Source: Nitrobacteraceae bacterium AZCC 1564 (GTDB lineage Bacteria > Pseudomonadota > Alphaproteobacteria > Rhizobiales > Xanthobacteraceae). From it: DNA of 64,000 nt. The position numbers and the translations under genes are program-made. Positions 17,098 through 27,376 of this stretch are shown here, piece after piece; position 1 is the first letter of the stretch, and the number at the start of each line of letters is the position of its first letter. The notes beneath the pieces were generated by a model. That model was not told the DNA's origin, made no database searches, and saw only the letters and a program-made list of their open reading frames with translations. Where the stretch lies: NCBI GenBank assembly GCA_036924835.1, contig JBAGRR010000001.1:992001-1056000 (forward strand), written 5' to 3'.

Positions 17098-19404
17098 TCA
17101 GCGGACCTGAAGCTGAATCGCTGCCCTGAAAGAGACGCGCGACCCTTGGGGCGGCGGCTGGCGCCCCGATACCGCGGCTGCCCCGGTATTGGTCACCCCC
17201 GATATAGCCGGAGCACCGGAATTGGCAGGGACGACAGCGATGGAGCGAGCAACCGCGGTGGTGTAATTCGGCACCGGCGTAAACTGGTTCTTGTTGAAGT
17301 CATGCTGGATCCGATCCCCGCCGCCCGCCTGTGTGGCACAGACAGCCGTGACCGTTTCGCGCCCTTTGTCCTTCATCCTGAACTGAAACGGCGCCCCCGC
17401 CCCGGGAAATTGGATCGGAACGCCCGCCTTGATGAAGTTCTCCTGCTGGAAGCGGTTTGGCATTAAGACCGTGCCTTCGCCCTTCTCGTCGATATCCATC
17501 AGTGTCAGGAAACAATCTCGGGAGGTCACGATGGTGAACACCGGACTGTCACCCACACGGTAGCTGTCCTGGTCCGAGGTCAGCGAAAGATCTATGTCGC
17601 CCCCAACCGGCCGCGCGACAGGCTGGACGGCCGGACGCCCGCTCATCTGCACGGGCTTGAGATCAGTCATGTCCGGAGCAATTTCGCGAAAGGCGAGCTC
17701 GAAAGCATCGCGGGGGACCGATCCTTGCGAGAGCCGGCGCAGCAACGGACGATACTTCTTAGCGACATCCGCGCCCCCCTCCTTGAATTCGGTCTTGGTG
17801 AGGCCAAGTTCGGCTGCTGCTAGCGTCAGATCGAGATCGTCTTCATAGCGCTTCGCCAACGCATTGATCATCTCAATGCCGTTAAGCTTGAGTGCGGGAT
17901 CAAGCCCCGCGCGCTTCATGGCATCCGCGAAGCGCTTGCCGTCGCCCTCGATCAGGGCATCCATCTTGTCATGCGGCGGATAAAGACCCTCGACCTGCTC
18001 CCGAACCTCACGGGGGAAAGTGCGGCCATTCAGGATCAGGTCGCGGACGTCATCCTTGGCCTTGCGCATGCCCTGATCATGGCACCCCATACACGAGATG
18101 CCGTTGGTGACGGAGAAATCCTTACGCGAGGGATCGCGGACAATTGCCGTCGGCCCTTTGTCGAGCCGCTCACCGGTGGCCTTGTTCAGGTAGTAGGCCT
18201 GAAACCCATTGGGCAGGCTGAAGATCGTCTCCCCGCCGTCGTGATGGAAAGTGTTCTGCCCCGACGGACCAAGCGGGTAATCGAACAGGTTTTGACGGTC
18301 CTTGTTTCCAGCGAAATCATATGACGTCCAGAAGTAGCCACTGCGCGATGGATGGCGTTCGATCAAGCGATTGTTCTGGCTAACACCGGACTTCTGGAAC
18401 GCTGCGCGTTGCGCGACGAAATTGCGGATGTTGCCTTCGATATCGATCCCCTGCTCGCGCGCGAGCTGCTGAAACGTGTTGGGCAACTGAAGCAGCACGT
18501 CGTACAGCGGCGGTTGCGAGGCAACGAACGCAAACCAGTCCGCACGAACATAAGCCATCGGAGCGCGCGTGCTGGTGGCCAGGGCGCGGCTGGTCTCGGT
18601 ATCCGGGTCGACCATGTAGGGATACGTCGCGATAACATTTTCCCAGTCACTTCCATTCCAGCCAAGATCGGCCAGATTGAAGCGAATGATCGTGCGTTCG
18701 GGATCGATCGTCTCCAGCTTGATCACATCCGAGGAACGGCTGAGCGAATTGAGGAATTTGACCGCAGCCTGCCGGTAGACATTCATCGCCGCCGCATCGG
18801 CGCAGATGTTGGCGAGATGGGTTAGCGTCAGATAACGCGTGGTCTGGCGCCGCTGAGGCAACTGCTTGTCGAGATCTTTCGCCATCAACGCAATCATGTC
18901 GTTCGGCGTTATGAACTTGTGCGCTTCGCATGTCGCAGTCGCTTTGGTCCCGAGTGCGGAAATCCAGTCCTCAAGCGCCTTGATGTCTGCCTCCGATACG
19001 CGCGGATATCTGGTCTCGCCTTCGTAGTTGATGTCGTATGGCATCTCCTTGTCGGCAATCTGCCGAAAGAGCTTCGAACCAAGCGGATTTCCGGGAAGTA
19101 CGTAGTGCGGGTTTGAGGCAATCTCGTCGAGCTTCAGAATGTTGCCGAAGTTCTTCGCCGGCCGCTCGCGCTCCACCAGCTTACCCTGCTGGTGGCAGCG
19201 CGCGCAGTGCTGTTCGAGAACATTGAACGCAGCCTTCGCAACCGGGTCAGACGGTGAAGTGATGGCTTCCGACGTGTTTGCACGGACAGCTGCCTCGCCG
19301 GGTTTCCCTTCCTGAGCGAACGCAATTCCGGAAATACCAAAAGCCAATCCCACGGCGACCGTAAGCCCGATCGCCCTGAGGCGAAATTCCGGCAATCCGC
19401 TCAT
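17098..19404 (-). CDS. exported di-haem cytochrome c-type protein with C-terminal DUF4384
   Basis: A 768-residue protein with a signal peptide (AVGLAFGISGIAFA). The first haem-binding motif CARCH is at about residues 67-71, in a cytochrome c-like domain preceding LEDWISALG; a second, CMGCH, is at about 438-442. The middle 160-430 has no fold I recognise. From about 607 comes a DUF4384-like beta domain (LTSDQDSYRVGDSPVFTIVTS, LTLMDIDEKGEGTVLMPN). It is likely periplasmic or surface-linked and redox-active. The ATG at 19404 is preferred (GAGGGGAAG just upstream). It is the last gene of the sigma/anti-sigma/subtilase/OmpA row. Confidence 0.8.
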   Translation of the reverse strand: MSGLPEFRLRAIGLTVAVGLAFGISGIAFAQEGKPGEAAVRANTSEAITSPSDPVAKAAFNVLEQHCARCHQQGKLVERERPAKNFGNILKLDEIASNPHYVLPGNPLGSKLFRQIADKEMPYDINYEGETRYPRVSEADIKALEDWISALGTKATATCEAHKFITPNDMIALMAKDLDKQLPQRRQTTRYLTLTHLANICADAAAMNVYRQAAVKFLNSLSRSSDVIKLETIDPERTIIRFNLADLGWNGSDWENVIATYPYMVDPDTETSRALATSTRAPMAYVRADWFAFVASQPPLYDVLLQLPNTFQQLAREQGIDIEGNIRNFVAQRAAFQKSGVSQNNRLIERHPSRSGYFWTSYDFAGNKDRQNLFDYPLGPSGQNTFHHDGGETIFSLPNGFQAYYLNKATGERLDKGPTAIVRDPSRKDFSVTNGISCMGCHDQGMRKAKDDVRDLILNGRTFPREVREQVEGLYPPHDKMDALIEGDGKRFADAMKRAGLDPALKLNGIEMINALAKRYEDDLDLTLAAAELGLTKTEFKEGGADVAKKYRPLLRRLSQGSVPRDAFELAFREIAPDMTDLKPVQMSGRPAVQPVARPVGGDIDLSLTSDQDSYRVGDSPVFTIVTSRDCFLTLMDIDEKGEGTVLMPNRFQQENFIKAGVPIQFPGAGAPFQFRMKDKGRETVTAVCATQAGGGDRIQHDFNKNQFTPVPNYTTAVARSIAVVPANSGAPAISGVTNTGAAAVSGRQPPPQGSRVSFRAAIQLQVR

Positions 19405-19482
19405 CAAAGCTTCCCCTCACATACTTCTCAACGACAGGCCGTCGGCTATTGGTCGTTTCAGCGCATGAGCGCGTTCAAGGAA

Positions 19483-20133
19483 CTATCGTCCAGTCGTCGC
19501 CTGGATTGTGGTGTTGACGATCTGAACGCGGCGATTTTCCGCGCTCAGCGGGTCGGTCGTATTCTTCAACTGTTCTGCGCCGAAACCGGTGGCAATCAGG
19601 GTGTCTGGCGCGAGCTTATATTGCTCAATCAGAATTCGGCGAACGGCATTGGCGCGACGCTGGGAAAGCGTTTGATTGTAGTCCGCACGACCGGCAGCGT
19701 CCGTGTGGCCGTTGATCAGGAAGACAGAGCCCTTCGGACCTTGGCGTGACAATGCAGCTGCGAGCGCCATCAACACCGGCGCAGCTTTTGGCGTGATTTC
19801 AGCGGAGTCGTAATCGAACAGGATGTCCAGATCGATCGCGGGCTTGTCGCGCGAGATGTCCGCAATCAGCGCCCGCTCATCGACGCTTGGGACTGCAGCC
19901 GGTTCGACGCTGATGGAACGGGTCCGAATCCGATCAATGACCTGCCTTTCGGCAACAGTTTTCGGATCAGCCGCAAGGCTTCGCGTCAGCGGCACGTTCG
20001 ATTTCAATGCCGCTCCAATCTGGTCTTCGAGCGACTGCGCGTACGCGGGATCGACCAGCGCCGCCATCGCAAACACCGCCAGGACCGGCGCAGATCCAAT
20101 GATTGTCAAAAAAGGGGGAAATTTGAATTGCAT
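19483..20133 (-). CDS. OmpA family peptidoglycan-associated protein
   Basis: A 216-residue protein from the ATG at 20133. The signal peptide is APVLAVFAMAALVDPAYA. The C-terminal OmpA domain (about residues 105-210) has LDILFDYDSAEITPKAAPVL, the peptidoglycan-binding NGHTDAAGRADYNQTLSQRRANAVRR core and the closing ENRRVQI. There is no beta-barrel and no lipobox, so it is a soluble periplasmic cell-wall-binding protein. The longer upstream frame is rejected because its extra 88 residues look non-coding. Confidence 0.88.
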   Translation of the reverse strand: MQFKFPPFLTIIGSAPVLAVFAMAALVDPAYAQSLEDQIGAALKSNVPLTRSLAADPKTVAERQVIDRIRTRSISVEPAAVPSVDERALIADISRDKPAIDLDILFDYDSAEITPKAAPVLMALAAALSRQGPKGSVFLINGHTDAAGRADYNQTLSQRRANAVRRILIEQYKLAPDTLIATGFGAEQLKNTTDPLSAENRRVQIVNTTIQATTGR

Positions 20134-20482
20134 GAGAAGGTCTTCAACAATGTCATTTGCGGCAGTCAGCCCGCCGCTTGTGCATCCTCGTCTGGTTGGA
20201 TCAAAACGGTCAAGTCTTGGGCAAACTACAAGTTCATCGGCAACGCCGGATGACAGCACGGCTGGCGAAGACCCGTCCGGGGGACAACCGGACGGGTCAA
20301 GCCGTGACGGCGCGAGGGTGGATGGGCACACGCGCCGGCAAGCTACGAGGGCGGGAAATTCGCCTTCGCGTGAATTCGTCGGCCGACAGCGGAACAAGGT
20401 TCACACAAGAACGGCGACAGAATTTGCAAAAATCCACCAGCCGGCTGCGTTGATATGGACGGTAAGAGCCCGCGCGAACGAT
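20134..20482. other. 349-bp gap between subtilase and ompA-type genes
   Basis: No gene is recognised. The region holds the hairpin at 20270-20298 and presumably the 5' leader or promoter of the minus-strand OmpA-type gene. The short frames across it lack motifs. Confidence 0.5.
20270..20298. other. perfect 11-bp inverted repeat (hairpin)
   Basis: GACCCGTCCGG, a 7-base loop, then CCGGACGGGTC. It lies about 185 bases after the subtilase stop and 137 before the OmpA-type start on the minus strand. No T-run follows on either strand, so a simple intrinsic terminator is not supported. A leader-RNA structure or a transcript-processing site would also fit. Confidence 0.45.
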
Positions 20483-21982
20483 TTAGCGCGTCGTGCCTTT
20501 GTCTGATGCGGCCGCCAAAGGCGCCGGCGCCACCGCAGAGACCGCACCGAAAGCATCCGCCTGCCCGGCCCCGAACTGATCGTCACGCCCCTTCGGTCCG
20601 AGGTCACGTGCAGTCGAGGCCAAGGTTGCGCGGATGTCGGTAGCGGATAAGTCCGGATTGCGTGCGATCAACAGCGCGACCAGTCCACTGATGAAGGCCG
20701 ACGATAACGACGTGCCGGAAGCCATCTGATATTTTCCGTCAGGCGCTGGAGACAAAATATCCACACCCGGAGCCGCGATAGCGACATAGCTGCCGCGATT
20801 GGATTGTACGAACAGCCGATCGGACTGATCGGTCGCCGAAACCGCGATCACGTTCGGATCCGCGGCGGGATAAAGCGGCGGAGATTTCGGCCCAGCGTTT
20901 CCGGCGGCTGCAACGAGAACGACGCCTTTGGCTGCCGCCGCCGCAAGCGCGCGTTGCATGACGGGATCATGGGGGCCCGCGAAGCTCATATTGACGACCT
21001 GTGCGCCGTTAGCCACCGCGTAGTTCAGGCTTTTGAGAAGAATGAACGACGTGCTTTCCGGGCCGCTCTTCTTTGCGCCAAAGGCGCGAATGGCGAGAAG
21101 ATGTGCTGAAGGTGCCGTTCCCATCAAACGGCCATGGGCGGCGATGACACCTGCGATTCCAGTGCCGTGGGGGTGTGGCCCTTCCTCGCTGTTCAAAGCA
21201 TCGAACGTGCCCGCGATGACCCCCGCCAACTCTGGATGCGTGACGTCAACGCCGGAGTCGATGACGGCAACCGTCACATCCGCACCGACCGACAGGGCGT
21301 GCGCCTCTGGTAGTCGCATCTTCGCAAGCGCATACTGGGCCGGGTCGCCTTCGCTGGACGTCGACTGTTGCTGGAGCTTGAAGATATTGTTTCGCTGCGC
21401 CGATCGAACATCTCCGCTCGCCATCAGCTCTCGAACGACGGTATCAACCGAACGGCCATCCGTGATCCGCCAGCGGAAGAAGGTGCTGTTGGTCAATGCG
21501 AAGTTCTGCGATTGCACACGCGTCAGGCGATGGCGGCGTGTAATCCCATCAACCTGTTCATCGGACGGCGTCCCATCGATTTCGATCAGCACTTCCTTGG
21601 CGACGTATGAATTGTCAGCCACGGTCGCCGGACTCTTTTTCGTCCGACGCGGTGGCGCGGCGTCACGCGCGCTCTTCGCTTGCCCCTGCTCAACGTTCCT
21701 TGCGGCACGCGGACGCGCCTGCGGTCTCGGCTGATCGATTCCGTCGTATTGAACGTTGGGCGAGTACCGTACATTTGGATTGACGGAGATCCGCGGCCCG
21801 ACGTTGATGCTAGGAGTCCGCATGACGCTGGGGCTCCGCACGCTGAAATTAGTGTAGCTCTGCGCATGCGCAATAGGGACGACGAAACTGGCAACAACGG
21901 ATGTCGTGACAGCCACACACGCGTAGCGAAAGATCGCACGAACGCGCTCGGCATTTCGTTTGGCGTTTCTCGCTCTGATCAT
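20483..21982 (-). CDS. secreted S8 family serine peptidase (subtilase)
   Basis: A 499-residue subtilisin-like protease. Residues 1-40 are a signal peptide ending AHA. A low-complexity Arg/Pro stretch follows, then a propeptide-like domain (about 128-203: VLIEIDGTPSDEQVDGITRR to NNIFKLQ). The catalytic triad is complete: Asp242 in VAVIDSGVD, His272 in HPHGTGIAG and Ser425 in SGTSLSSAF, with the oxyanion Asn in AAAGNAG. It acts in the periplasm or outside the cell. ATG with GAGGAC 8 bases upstream. It lies 66 bases downstream of the anti-sigma gene on the same strand. Confidence 0.95.
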   Translation of the reverse strand: MIRARNAKRNAERVRAIFRYACVAVTTSVVASFVVPIAHAQSYTNFSVRSPSVMRTPSINVGPRISVNPNVRYSPNVQYDGIDQPRPQARPRAARNVEQGQAKSARDAAPPRRTKKSPATVADNSYVAKEVLIEIDGTPSDEQVDGITRRHRLTRVQSQNFALTNSTFFRWRITDGRSVDTVVRELMASGDVRSAQRNNIFKLQQQSTSSEGDPAQYALAKMRLPEAHALSVGADVTVAVIDSGVDVTHPELAGVIAGTFDALNSEEGPHPHGTGIAGVIAAHGRLMGTAPSAHLLAIRAFGAKKSGPESTSFILLKSLNYAVANGAQVVNMSFAGPHDPVMQRALAAAAAKGVVLVAAAGNAGPKSPPLYPAADPNVIAVSATDQSDRLFVQSNRGSYVAIAAPGVDILSPAPDGKYQMASGTSLSSAFISGLVALLIARNPDLSATDIRATLASTARDLGPKGRDDQFGAGQADAFGAVSAVAPAPLAAASDKGTTR

Positions 21983-22048
21983 CTCGCGTCCTCGCCCACT
22001 TCCTGCGCGCGCACGATTCGCAAAGTTCTACCGCTTCTGGACAGGCAG

Positions 22049-22726
22049 TTATTCTGCCGCCACAGCCAGGCTAATGATCTTTTCGCCCTGCACCTTTGCG
22101 AGCAATTGCGCAGCCTCCTGCTTCGACAATGCTGTGTCACCGAACCGGACACGGAACATTCCGGCCTGAGGTCCCGAAACGATCGACGCCTTATAGGTAT
22201 CGAGCAGCTTGGTGATGTCGGACGCACTGGCATCCGGCGCGAAGCGGATTAGAGCATAAGTCCCAGTGGCTTGCTGCGCCTGGAAAGATGCGGTTTCAAA
22301 ATTGCCGCCGGAGCGATCCTTGACCAGCACTGTGCCGATCACCCCTGCTTGCAACAGGAGCACGGCAGCACCGGCAATAGCCGAATAAGCCAATGTCCGG
22401 GGGGCGAGACTCGAAAAGAATTCTGAGATCCGCTGCAACGGACTGAATGAAGACGACGGCTTGCGCGCAGGTTCCGCGTCGATCGCATCGAACAGCTTTT
22501 GCATCGCGCGTGTCGATGGCGCTCCCAGGCTCTCGTTCAACAATATTGTCTCTGCGTATTCATCCTGGATCGCGGCATACTGGCGGGCAAGATCGGGATC
22601 ATTGGCCAATGCTTCTTCAACGCGGCGCGCATCACGCAAATTGAGCGTTCCAGCAGCATGGAATGGCAGCAGAGCCTCGATCTCCGTCGGTTCACGATCC
22701 TCGGTCTGTTTGCTTGCCGCAGTCAT
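22049..22726 (-). CDS. membrane anti-sigma factor with a subtilase-propeptide-like periplasmic domain
   Basis: A 225-residue protein whose start overlaps the sigma-factor stop (ATGA, 22723-22726), so the pair is translationally coupled. Residues 1-90 resemble an anti-sigma domain (EIEALLPFHAAGTLNLRDARRVEEALA) but lack zinc cysteines. One transmembrane helix is at about 111-131 (LAYSAIAGAAVLLLQAGVIGTVL). The periplasmic part (about 150-225: YALIRFAPDASASDITKLL to GEKIISLAVAAE) has the beta-alpha-beta-beta-alpha-beta order of subtilisin propeptides (I9 type). A longer upstream start would run into the sigma gene and is rejected. Confidence 0.82.
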   Translation of the reverse strand: MTAASKQTEDREPTEIEALLPFHAAGTLNLRDARRVEEALANDPDLARQYAAIQDEYAETILLNESLGAPSTRAMQKLFDAIDAEPARKPSSSFSPLQRISEFFSSLAPRTLAYSAIAGAAVLLLQAGVIGTVLVKDRSGGNFETASFQAQQATGTYALIRFAPDASASDITKLLDTYKASIVSGPQAGMFRVRFGDTALSKQEAAQLLAKVQGEKIISLAVAAE

Positions 22727-23292
22727 GGCCAACCTCGCTCGACACCGGCTGCTTTCAGCAGCTCGGCCAATTTCTTTCGCGCATAAAACAAACGCGTCTT
22801 CACCGTGTTTTCCGGGATACCCACGATCTCGGCCACCTCTTCCACGGACTTCTCGTGGTAGTAGACGAGATCGACGATCTCCCGATGCTCTGGCGAAAGT
22901 GCGGTCAAGCAATTCCGCAACGCGTTACCAGTATCTTTCTTCGCAATAACGGTTTCCGGATTGTCGGACGTATCCTCGATCGCGGCAGCCGCCTCCTCAT
23001 CCAATTCCGCGTCCTTCCTCTTGCGGAGGGCAGACAGGGCCTTGAATCGGGTGATCGCCAGGAGCCACGTAGAGACGGCAGACCGGCCTTCAAATTTGCC
23101 GGCCTGACGCCACACGTCGAGAAAAACCTCACTAATGAGGTCTTCCGCGACAGACTCGTTACGAACGAGCCGCAGCGCGAAGCGGAACACCCGTACATGG
23201 TGCCTTCCGTAAAGCACCTGCATGGCGAGACGGTCACCGTTGGCTATGCGACCGATCAGAACTTCGTCCGTGGCCGCCTGTGTTGCACTCAA
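22723..23292 (-). CDS. ECF-type RNA polymerase sigma factor
   Basis: A 189-residue sigma-70 family protein with only regions 2 and 4. Region 2 (about 25-95) includes LYGRHHVRVFRFALRLV and DLISEVFLDVWRQAGKFEGRSAVSTWLLAITR; region 4 (about 130-180) includes ALSPEHREIVDLVYYHEKSVEEVAEIVGIPENTVKTRLFYARKKL. It should direct transcription of the envelope genes downstream and is held by the coupled anti-sigma factor. The assigned start is TTG (23292), because no ATG or GTG lies near; this start is uncertain. Confidence 0.92.
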   Translation of the reverse strand: MSATQAATDEVLIGRIANGDRLAMQVLYGRHHVRVFRFALRLVRNESVAEDLISEVFLDVWRQAGKFEGRSAVSTWLLAITRFKALSALRKRKDAELDEEAAAAIEDTSDNPETVIAKKDTGNALRNCLTALSPEHREIVDLVYYHEKSVEEVAEIVGIPENTVKTRLFYARKKLAELLKAAGVERGWP

Positions 23293-23376
23293 TGGCCGTC
23301 TCGCAAGGTTGGTCGCTGAGGACTGGGAAAGGGTTCAATCAAATCCGTGAAAATCTTCGCGAATCTCTGGAAGACT

Positions 23377-26186: not shown

Positions 26187-26825
26187 CTAGTATTTGAACA
26201 TCTTCGAGCCGGCAAACGCACCGATCGCAACGACGACTCCGGTGGCGAGTGTATACCAGGTCGCGACGAACAGCGGTGAATCGTCCATGCAATGCGACGC
26301 ATAAATCGCCGCCGCAAATCCTGCCGACAACAAGCCGGCAAAGGCACCGGCAAGCGCGGGCCGAGAGGGGGCGCCGTGACGTAGCGCCAGCAATGCTGCG
26401 GCCAGCACCGGCAATGACAGCAGCGGAATAGCCATCACACATACGCGCGAGCTGTTGCCAATTAACCGTGCCGACCATGTGGTGCGCTGAGGCATCATCA
26501 TGTCGCCCATCACCCCGATACCCAGCAGGCCGATGGGAATCGCCAGCAGCCAGCCCCAGCGGCCGATGGTCTGCTCAGGTCGCGACAGATGCAGGCTGAT
26601 GGCAATTGACGCGCCTGCCAATGCAATCGTGACAGCGAACTTCAAATCAAAAAATGGATTTCCCAGAGCTTCCATGAAATCCTTGCGCATGCCGAGCGTC
26701 GCCAGAAGCATTGCCGCCGATACGGGGACAGCGAGCAAAAGCGCCACCAGCAGTAAGTCGCTTACAGGCCTTTCTTGCGTCGTATTGTCGGCGACCAGCG
26801 TGCGAATAAGATCATCGGTCTTCAT
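26187..26825 (-). CDS. NrsF (DUF1109) family membrane anti-sigma factor
   Basis: A 212-residue inner-membrane protein with six hydrophobic segments, matching DUF1109/NrsF. The two conserved cysteines expected in the family are present, in NSSRVCVMAIPLLSLP and YASHCMDDSPLFVATWY. In Caulobacter the homologue holds the ECF factor SigF inactive until metals or oxidants act on these cysteines. It lies 5 bases downstream of the sigma gene, so it is a sigma/anti-sigma pair. Confidence 0.9.
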   Translation of the reverse strand: MKTDDLIRTLVADNTTQERPVSDLLLVALLLAVPVSAAMLLATLGMRKDFMEALGNPFFDLKFAVTIALAGASIAISLHLSRPEQTIGRWGWLLAIPIGLLGIGVMGDMMMPQRTTWSARLIGNSSRVCVMAIPLLSLPVLAAALLALRHGAPSRPALAGAFAGLLSAGFAAAIYASHCMDDSPLFVATWYTLATGVVVAIGAFAGSKMFKY

Positions 26826-26830
26826 GGTGA

Positions 26831-27376
26831 TCAGTCTTTCCGCAATCGGTTTGCCAGGCCGGTCAGCCCACGATGCAATGCCACACGAACCGCTCCTTCA
26901 GTCATTGAAAGCTTCGTCGCCGTCTCCTTGATCGACGCACTGTCAACTGCAATCGACCGCAGCACGTCGCGCTGTCGTTTGGGCAAGGTTTCGAGCTGAG
27001 CAGCAACCGTGCTTGCCGGGACGGTCTCTTCGGCTGGCTCGTCGGGCAGCGTTTCGGAAAAGTCATCGATGTTGACAAAAATGCGCCTGCCCCGACGGCG
27101 CAAGGCATCGATCAATTTGTTGCGGGCAATGGCGAATAGCCACGGTGCAAACGGGGCCTTCGGATCCCACGTATGTCGTTTCAAATGCACCGCGAATAGA
27201 ATGTCTTGCACGATGTCCTCGGCTTGATCGAGCGGCTGGCCTGCCCGCCCCAATCCGCGGCGTGTCACAGCTCTTAGAACCGGCGCCACGGTCATCAGAA
27301 GACGACCATATGCGGCATTGTCCCCCGCATTGGCCGCTTTCATCAGGTCGGTCCACTCGTTTTCCCGTCCGCGCAC
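26831..27376 (-). CDS. ECF sigma factor, SigF-like
   Basis: A 181-residue sigma-70 family protein with region 2 (QAEDIVQDILFAVHLKRHTWDPKAPFAPWLFAIARNKLIDALRRR, about 50-95) and region 4 (LPKRQRDVLRSIAVDSASIKETATKLSMTEGAVRVALHRGL, about 128-170). Pairing with NrsF points to the SigF group that answers heavy metals and oxidative stress. CAGGAG precedes the start, and a candidate autoregulatory promoter lies 21-45 bases upstream. None of the usual SigF targets (DUF692, DoxX) is seen here. Confidence 0.92.
   Translation of the reverse strand: MRGRENEWTDLMKAANAGDNAAYGRLLMTVAPVLRAVTRRGLGRAGQPLDQAEDIVQDILFAVHLKRHTWDPKAPFAPWLFAIARNKLIDALRRRGRRIFVNIDDFSETLPDEPAEETVPASTVAAQLETLPKRQRDVLRSIAVDSASIKETATKLSMTEGAVRVALHRGLTGLANRLRKD

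Follow-up and report, generated by a model that had tools for sequence, protein, structure and literature searches.

What frees an extracytoplasmic function (ECF) sigma factor when the gene directly behind its anti-sigma gene encodes a secreted subtilase? To our knowledge, there are many ECF sigma factors for which neither the input signal nor the first protease is known. We pursued the question at a locus of Nitrobacteraceae bacterium AZCC 1564, within a stretch of 64,000 nucleotides (hereafter the window) from a genome that forms one contig of 6.0 Mb and belongs to a genus with Afipia as its named close relatives. The sigma, anti-sigma and S8 subtilase genes of this locus make up a conserved module of three linked genes, which is well supported by their distribution across genomes, and structure prediction together with profile comparison supports a propeptide-like domain at the periplasmic end of the anti-sigma protein. 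The reading that we favour, giving it not quite an even chance, is that the subtilase docks on this pseudo-propeptide, cuts the linker that joins it to the membrane segment, and thereby starts the release of the sigma factor.

A conserved module of three linked genes

The three genes and the elements discussed below lie in the window as follows.

23309..23337, minus strand: ECF-type promoter-like site TGAACC-N16-CGAC-NN-A, 5' of the sigma gene, from the pattern count in upstream regions
22723..23292, minus strand: ECF sigma factor with a TTG start, NCBIfam PRK12515, from profile matches
22049..22726, minus strand: putative anti-sigma protein with one transmembrane segment, 225 amino acids, its role assigned from position, transmembrane segment and sub-threshold family matches
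22325..22393, minus strand: transmembrane segment, residues about 112-134 of the anti-sigma protein, by eye
22283..22300, minus strand: linker element [YF]xTASG, residues 143-148, FETASF in the window, by its conservation a candidate site-1 cleavage or recognition site
22052..22264, minus strand: C-terminal propeptide-like domain of the anti-sigma protein, residues 155-225, from the predicted beta-alpha-beta-beta-alpha-beta order and a profile match
20483..21982, minus strand: secreted S8 subtilase, 499 amino acids, signal peptide at about residues 1-40 by eye, from profile match and catalytic triad
21371..21601, minus strand: protease prodomain, residues about 128-204, Fervidolysin_NPro-like, a sub-threshold match in the window protein
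21371..21391, minus strand: prodomain tail NNIFKLQ, residues 198-204, of the form N-x-x-[YF]-x-L-Q, putative P4-P1 of the autocleavage site
20543..21337, minus strand: catalytic domain with Asp242, His272, Asn362 and Ser425, from profile and alignment

The ATG of the anti-sigma gene overlaps the stop codon of the sigma gene, and 66 bases separate the anti-sigma gene from the subtilase gene. The sigma open reading frame (ORF) matches PRK12515 with 345.2 bits (cut-off, 236) and contains the domains Sigma70_r2 (4.1e-17) and Sigma70_r4_2 (8.2e-15). The N-terminal domain of the window's anti-sigma protein scores 16.6 bits against zf-HC2, below the cut-off of 22.2, which is passed by four of the ten relatives scanned (L304 with 29.2, L310 with 31.3, L319 and L321; here and below, L and G numbers denote loci and genomes). 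The subtilase matches Peptidase_S8 with an expectation value (E) of 2.8e-46, and its triad is kept throughout an alignment that joins the window protein to 134 relatives: Asp242 and His272 in 135 of 135 rows each and Ser425 in 133 of 135, the two gaps being L059 and L090, both cut by contig ends. These results agree with the first-pass annotation, made from the sequence alone, which had described an ECF sigma gene coupled to a gene for a one-helix anti-sigma protein and a secreted subtilase with a complete Asp/His/Ser triad; the promoter-like site, the linker motif, the lack of a tail and the OmpA and DUF4384 genes further downstream, all described below, are additions to it.

Within the genus, each of the three genes was found in 26 of 29 genomes, the window's own included (thresholds: E of 1e-3 for the anti-sigma protein, 1e-40 for subtilase and sigma factor). 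The whole set is lacking from three genomes: G002, which is 100% complete, and G016 and G021 (83%). The 25 other genus genomes with the anti-sigma protein are represented by 17 loci taken by position, by the seven loci L040-L046 and by G007, whose coordinates place an S8 gene beside the anti-sigma gene. Across the order, the anti-sigma protein occurs in 87 of 297 genomes, again counting the window's own; all 86 others were taken in, and a wider search added 40 regions, the remaining matches, mostly weak or partial, being left out.

The resulting tally comprises 155 loci, of which 140 carry the C-terminal domain in the anti-sigma protein and 15 have no domain call. An S8 gene lies within 3 kb of the anti-sigma gene in 132 of the 140 domain-bearing loci, 123 times downstream on the same strand, 5 times upstream on the same strand and 4 times on the opposite strand. 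Among the eight exceptions, three are contig ends (L102, L128 and L150), L139 is half of a split gene with the S8 gene on the other piece (L138), and L295 is a second paralogue whose sister L294 has an S8 gene, which leaves the distant loci L306, L308 and L309. The 15 loci without a domain call include three cut by contig ends (L047, L138 and L153), nine with neither domain nor S8 gene, and L310, with a weak domain match and an S8 gene. Anti-sigma proteins that match by their N-terminal part only lack a nearby S8 gene in 9 of 11 cases, three of these nine (L312, L313 and L320) having less than 4 kb of contig downstream; the other two, L319 (5919-8489) and L321 (5464-8780), have an S8 subtilase beside an anti-sigma protein whose periplasmic domain resembles 17-kDa surface antigens. 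A Fisher test of domain against S8 gene (132/4 versus 2/9), leaving out L310, the contig-end loci and the split genes, gives a P value of 5e-10 that ignores relatedness; since several genomes contribute two loci (G027, G042, G066, G301, G656 and G781), the loci are not independent. The first-pass annotation had raised the possibility that genomes keep the sigma pair without the subtilase as a rule; with co-presence in 26 of 29 genus genomes and 132 of 140 loci, they do not.

Could the linkage be passive, with an ancient operon passed on as one unit by descent or by transfer and the secreted domains never in functional contact? The dominance of a single arrangement, with the S8 gene downstream on the same strand in 123 of 132 loci, is what such passive linkage would produce, yet the genes also stay together in rearranged orders (9 of 132) while other neighbours turn over, and they are jointly missing from G002, G016 and G021; we regard this explanation as very improbable. 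When neighbouring ORFs were clustered (clusters in at least 10 loci considered, with lineage labels from our own grouping of the loci), the three genes of the module formed the widest clusters, present in 64 to 85 loci beyond the window's family. They were followed by an ORF antisense to the sigma and anti-sigma genes (19 outside loci), taken as an artefact; two neighbouring ORFs occur in outside loci alone, one in 11 and the other in 10, and 22 loci, 5 of them outside the window's family, have an enoyl-CoA hydratase-like ORF. No fourth gene among these clusters comes near the spread of the module, which occurs in Alphaproteobacteria as well as in a few other Pseudomonadota. At the second sigma homologue of the window's own genome (L223), neither an anti-sigma relative nor an S8 gene was detected in the 16 kb examined.

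Some of the distant loci are of interest in their own right. In L308 (7083-10231, genome G1010), the gene after that of a protein with the propeptide-like domain encodes a caspase (Peptidase_C14) that also matches DUF4384 weakly, and the domain may pair there with another protease class; DUF4384 is also found in the window gene at 17098-19407. L306 (6393-8213) and L309 (7914-9201) each contain a pair of adjoining ORFs that both match the C-terminal part of the anti-sigma profile, with no S8 gene in the stretches examined around them.

A predicted propeptide-like domain in the anti-sigma protein

The first-pass annotation had also seen the strand-helix order of subtilase propeptides both in the anti-sigma C terminus and ahead of the catalytic domain of the protease. 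Structure prediction returns this order twice: residues 156-223 of the anti-sigma protein are predicted as beta-alpha-beta-beta-alpha-beta, with predicted local distance difference test (pLDDT) values of 54-81 by ten-residue block, and residues 130-197 of the protease likewise (blocks of 54-84), in a model whose catalytic domain has a mean pLDDT of 36 (8 sequences). Profiles were compared using an alignment of anti-sigma domains (70 of 88 after an 85% identity filter) and one of proteases with 54 rows, the window and 53 of the other 69; the latter omits 10 proteases without the start motif used as a regular expression and L102 (no S8 gene on the contig), and L058, L085, L090, L091, L095 and L099 were removed by hand because the expression was misplaced or the row cut. 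The anti-sigma domain matched the neighbouring prodomain with an E of about 1e-6 and an hhalign score of 34.5, the best of 200 column-shuffled nulls reaching 18.3. An anti-sigma C terminus devoid of a propeptide fold, the outcome that had been named as contradicting the annotation, is therefore not what prediction and profile comparison yield.

Searches against known families and structures gave a more mixed picture. PF22148 (Fervidolysin_NPro-like) matches 23 of the 70 anti-sigma domains; among ten domains viewed singly, L079 alone exceeds the curated cut-off, and the window's own domain has no PF22148 match. The PC1/3 prodomain (9fic) is the top structural neighbour of the anti-sigma domain and of the protease prodomain alike. 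A sequence profile search of the PDB with the anti-sigma domain returned no propeptide and mainly chance matches to helical repeats, and Foldseek found nothing for it at E of 0.001 or lower, fervidolysin (1r6v) standing at rank 46 among the matches listed.

Another view would make the domain a sensor of a generic kind, ferredoxin-like or SPOR-like, that responds for instance to peptidoglycan or a small ligand, with the subtilase only a co-regulated output gene. Weak SPOR matches occur in 15 of the 70 domains, and the structures closest to the anti-sigma domain comprise, besides propeptides, numerous proteins that share the topology without being related, with comparable Z scores. Yet SPOR appears to rank below the prodomain: over both directions of comparison the scores are 34.5-36.5 for the prodomain, 23.0-24.3 for SPOR and 13.5-15.0 for ACT, with 64 aligned columns for the prodomain and 29 for SPOR. 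The genome distribution likewise points both ways, since S8 genes stand beside domain-less anti-sigma proteins in L319 and L321 and the domain occurs without an S8 gene in L295, L306, L308 and L309, whereas the S8 gene is retained through changes of gene order and no other candidate output gene is comparably spread. On balance, we find a generic sensor rather unlikely.

A domain without the active-site segment

The prodomain of the protease ends in a tail of the form N-x-x-[YF]-x-L-Q, with Asn198 in 118 of 135 rows, Tyr or Phe201 in 130, Leu203 in 90 and Gln204 in 75. In the profile alignment, residue 74 of the 76 residues of the anti-sigma domain pairs with protease residue 197, which by extrapolation puts the anti-sigma end near protease residue 199; in structural alignments to the BPN' propeptide (1spb_P), the anti-sigma C terminus falls at residue 73 and the prodomain end at 77, the latter position being uncertain because the pLDDT of the protease model drops below 50 from residue 199 on. 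The anti-sigma domain thus stops about 4-5 residues short of the segment that fills the active site, and in 115 of 140 loci no more than five residues of the anti-sigma protein follow the domain match. The prodomain also carries a putative helix-capping pair, Gln196 (91 of 135) and Asn198 (118 of 135), which an ungapped alignment of our own equates with Glu69 and Asp71 of BPN'; a capping role of such positions is described in PMC6993865 (here and below from an excerpt of that paper). The corresponding residues of the anti-sigma domain, 222 and 224, are not conserved. Highly conserved in this domain is the turn between strands 2 and 3, with Gly185, Pro186, Gly189, a mostly hydrophobic residue and Tyr or Phe191; in the PfSUB1 propeptide, a beta-hairpin turn bears a hydrophobic plug (PMC6993865).

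These features bear on the proposal of the first-pass annotation that the anti-sigma domain binds the protease as a pseudo-propeptide. The propeptide-like domain and the tight link to a subtilase speak for that idea; the missing plugging tail and the unconserved capping positions speak against a simple pseudo-propeptide inhibitor. In one version, the domain would be a membrane-tethered trans-inhibitor or folding chaperone, the protease would be its ligand, and loss, activation or misfolding of the protease would free the sigma factor. The evidence from linkage and fold serves this version as well as the reading we favour, and it has a precedent in SUB1-ProM, a stand-alone propeptide-like protein that is encoded beside subtilases and inhibits one of them; for that protease, a propeptide tail enhances inhibition without being essential (PMC6993865). 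The short end and the unconserved caps nevertheless fit docking without plugging better than strong inhibition, and we consider an inhibitor or chaperone doubtful. The anti-sigma domain may therefore act like a propeptide in recognition, and we do not class it as an I9 inhibitor.

A conserved motif in the linker

Between membrane and domain, the anti-sigma proteins have a linker with a median of 20 residues and a single conserved island, [YF]143-x-T145-A146-S147-G148. Information content is 2.5-3.5 bits at positions 143 and 145-147 and mostly 0.7-1.3 in the flanks, and a strict regular expression, chosen after viewing the alignment, matches 109 of the 137 linkers; if the linkers are shuffled, 4.2 matches are expected. 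The motif is absent from L295 and L306, the loci without an S8 gene in the linker alignment, and nothing like [YF]xTASG was seen by eye in the linkers of L308 and L309, which lie outside it. In L321, FQTAS, similar to the linker motif of the window's family, follows the 17-kDa surface antigen-like domain.

The linker motif and the tail motif of the protease both have an aromatic residue at the fourth position ahead of the presumed cut. With its conservation, this makes the linker motif a candidate site-1 cleavage or recognition site. A trans-inhibitor would leave this conserved element unexplained.

A possible route from subtilase to sigma factor

Taken together, these observations can be arranged into the route that we favour. 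The anti-sigma protein would keep the sigma factor at the membrane, and its periplasmic end, a degenerate subtilase propeptide, would recognise the partner subtilase without plugging its active site. Once its own propeptide has been removed, the mature subtilase would dock on this domain and cut the linker at its conserved [YF]xTASG segment, opening a series of proteolytic steps by which the sigma factor would be freed. The freed sigma factor would switch on its own operon, protease included, and in this lineage also the OmpA operon and probably other envelope genes. We infer that the anti-sigma domain docks to the partner protease, and we hypothesise both the cleavage of the linker and the direction of signalling. 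It is tempting to speculate, and we do so tentatively, that the tail-less pseudo-propeptide reports the arrival of mature, propeptide-free protease by being cut at [YF]xTASG, which would make the maturation state of the protease the envelope signal. At this one locus, the genome evidence names a candidate for the signal and for the first protease, together with a promoter motif, a predicted regulon and a candidate cleavage site that can be put to the test.

Promoter pattern and predicted regulon

Of 145 regions 5' of the sigma gene, 69 contain the pattern GAACC-N16-CGAC; in three sets of shuffled sequences, patterns of this kind reach 8 at most. When sites were attributed to genes in a related scan, 83 fell to sigma genes, 4 to S8 genes and 5 to anti-sigma genes; in L072 and L116 (S8) and in L134, L135 and L301 (anti-sigma) the site precedes the gene that opens a rearranged unit, and the remaining four of these nine sites are ambiguous (L307, L317, L321 and a second one in L116). 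This suggests that the operon is autoregulated by its sigma factor, which would also suit a generic sensor with the subtilase as output.

In the window's own genome, an extended pattern gives 22 matches, against 7 for the reversed pattern, a control implying that about a third of the matches arise by chance. The matches include sites before the sigma gene and before an OmpA gene that lies downstream of the module:

20375..20403, minus strand: second copy of the promoter-like site, 5' of the OmpA gene, from the pattern scan
19483..20133, minus strand: OmpA-family protein, start placed at ATG 20133, candidate regulon member, only in Afipia-like loci
17098..19407, minus strand: secreted protein with DUF4384 and weak cytochrome c matches, only in Afipia-like loci

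Other matches precede ORFs of secreted or envelope type, for example those of an FGE-sulfatase-domain protein, a polysaccharide deacetylase and a LemA protein; regulon assignments are by position only, and several pattern matches lie inside longer ORFs. Summed over the 26 sigma-bearing genus genomes, there are 408 matches against 79 for the control, and two of the three sigma-less genomes have little excess (7 versus 4 in G002, 6 versus 3 in G021).

Two observations weigh against the proposed regulation. The S8 gene lies upstream of the sigma gene in five loci, and only in L072 and L116 does a site precede it. Moreover, the sigma-less genome G016 (83% complete) has 13 pattern matches against 0 for the control, although its sigma gene may be missing merely because the assembly is incomplete.

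Several further features may be noted separately. The two proteins encoded at L326 (1545-1826) and L334 (1536-1841), each directly after a promoter-pattern match, are small and probably secreted; both have His-rich stretches, and their C termini resemble each other. The product of 17098-19407, 769 amino acids long, has two CxxCH-type haem motifs by eye in addition to DUF4384. About 3 kb from the module, at 26187-27376 on the minus strand of the window, lies a second sigma/anti-sigma pair, a sigma factor with NrsF (negative regulator of sigma F).

Comparison with known systems

In Escherichia coli, the RseA-sigmaE system works by regulated intramembrane proteolysis with DegS and RseP. It shares with the present locus an ECF sigma factor, an anti-sigma protein with one transmembrane segment and a periplasmic domain, and a periplasmic serine protease as site-1 protease, a role that we propose here for the subtilase and that DegS fills there (PMC8103513, from an excerpt). 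In contrast, the RseA-sigmaE protease is a PDZ protein of the HtrA family, whereas here the gene of an S8 subtilase is linked to the sigma pair and the anti-sigma protein carries a propeptide-like domain.

The literature that we searched, which did not extend to the main ECF reclassification paper, contained no description of a sigma/anti-sigma/subtilase module. The closest likeness in gene context is group ECF54, an ECF sigma factor with a neighbouring subtilase gene, for which an excerpt of PMC8999054 lists carboxypeptidase, subtilase and CHAT-domain genes. SUB1-ProM resembles the anti-sigma domain in being a propeptide-like protein encoded next to subtilases; it differs in being a stand-alone inhibitor with a modelled C-terminal tail and, in the excerpt cited, no sigma factor (PMC6993865). 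With subtilase propeptides at large (Inhibitor I9; PF22148), the anti-sigma domain has in common the predicted topology, the profile similarity and the encoding next to a subtilase, but it sits at the C terminus of a membrane anti-sigma protein and has neither the active-site tail nor conserved capping positions. If the route proposed above is true, a propeptide fold has been put to new use here, as the receptor for a protease of the kind to which it belongs.

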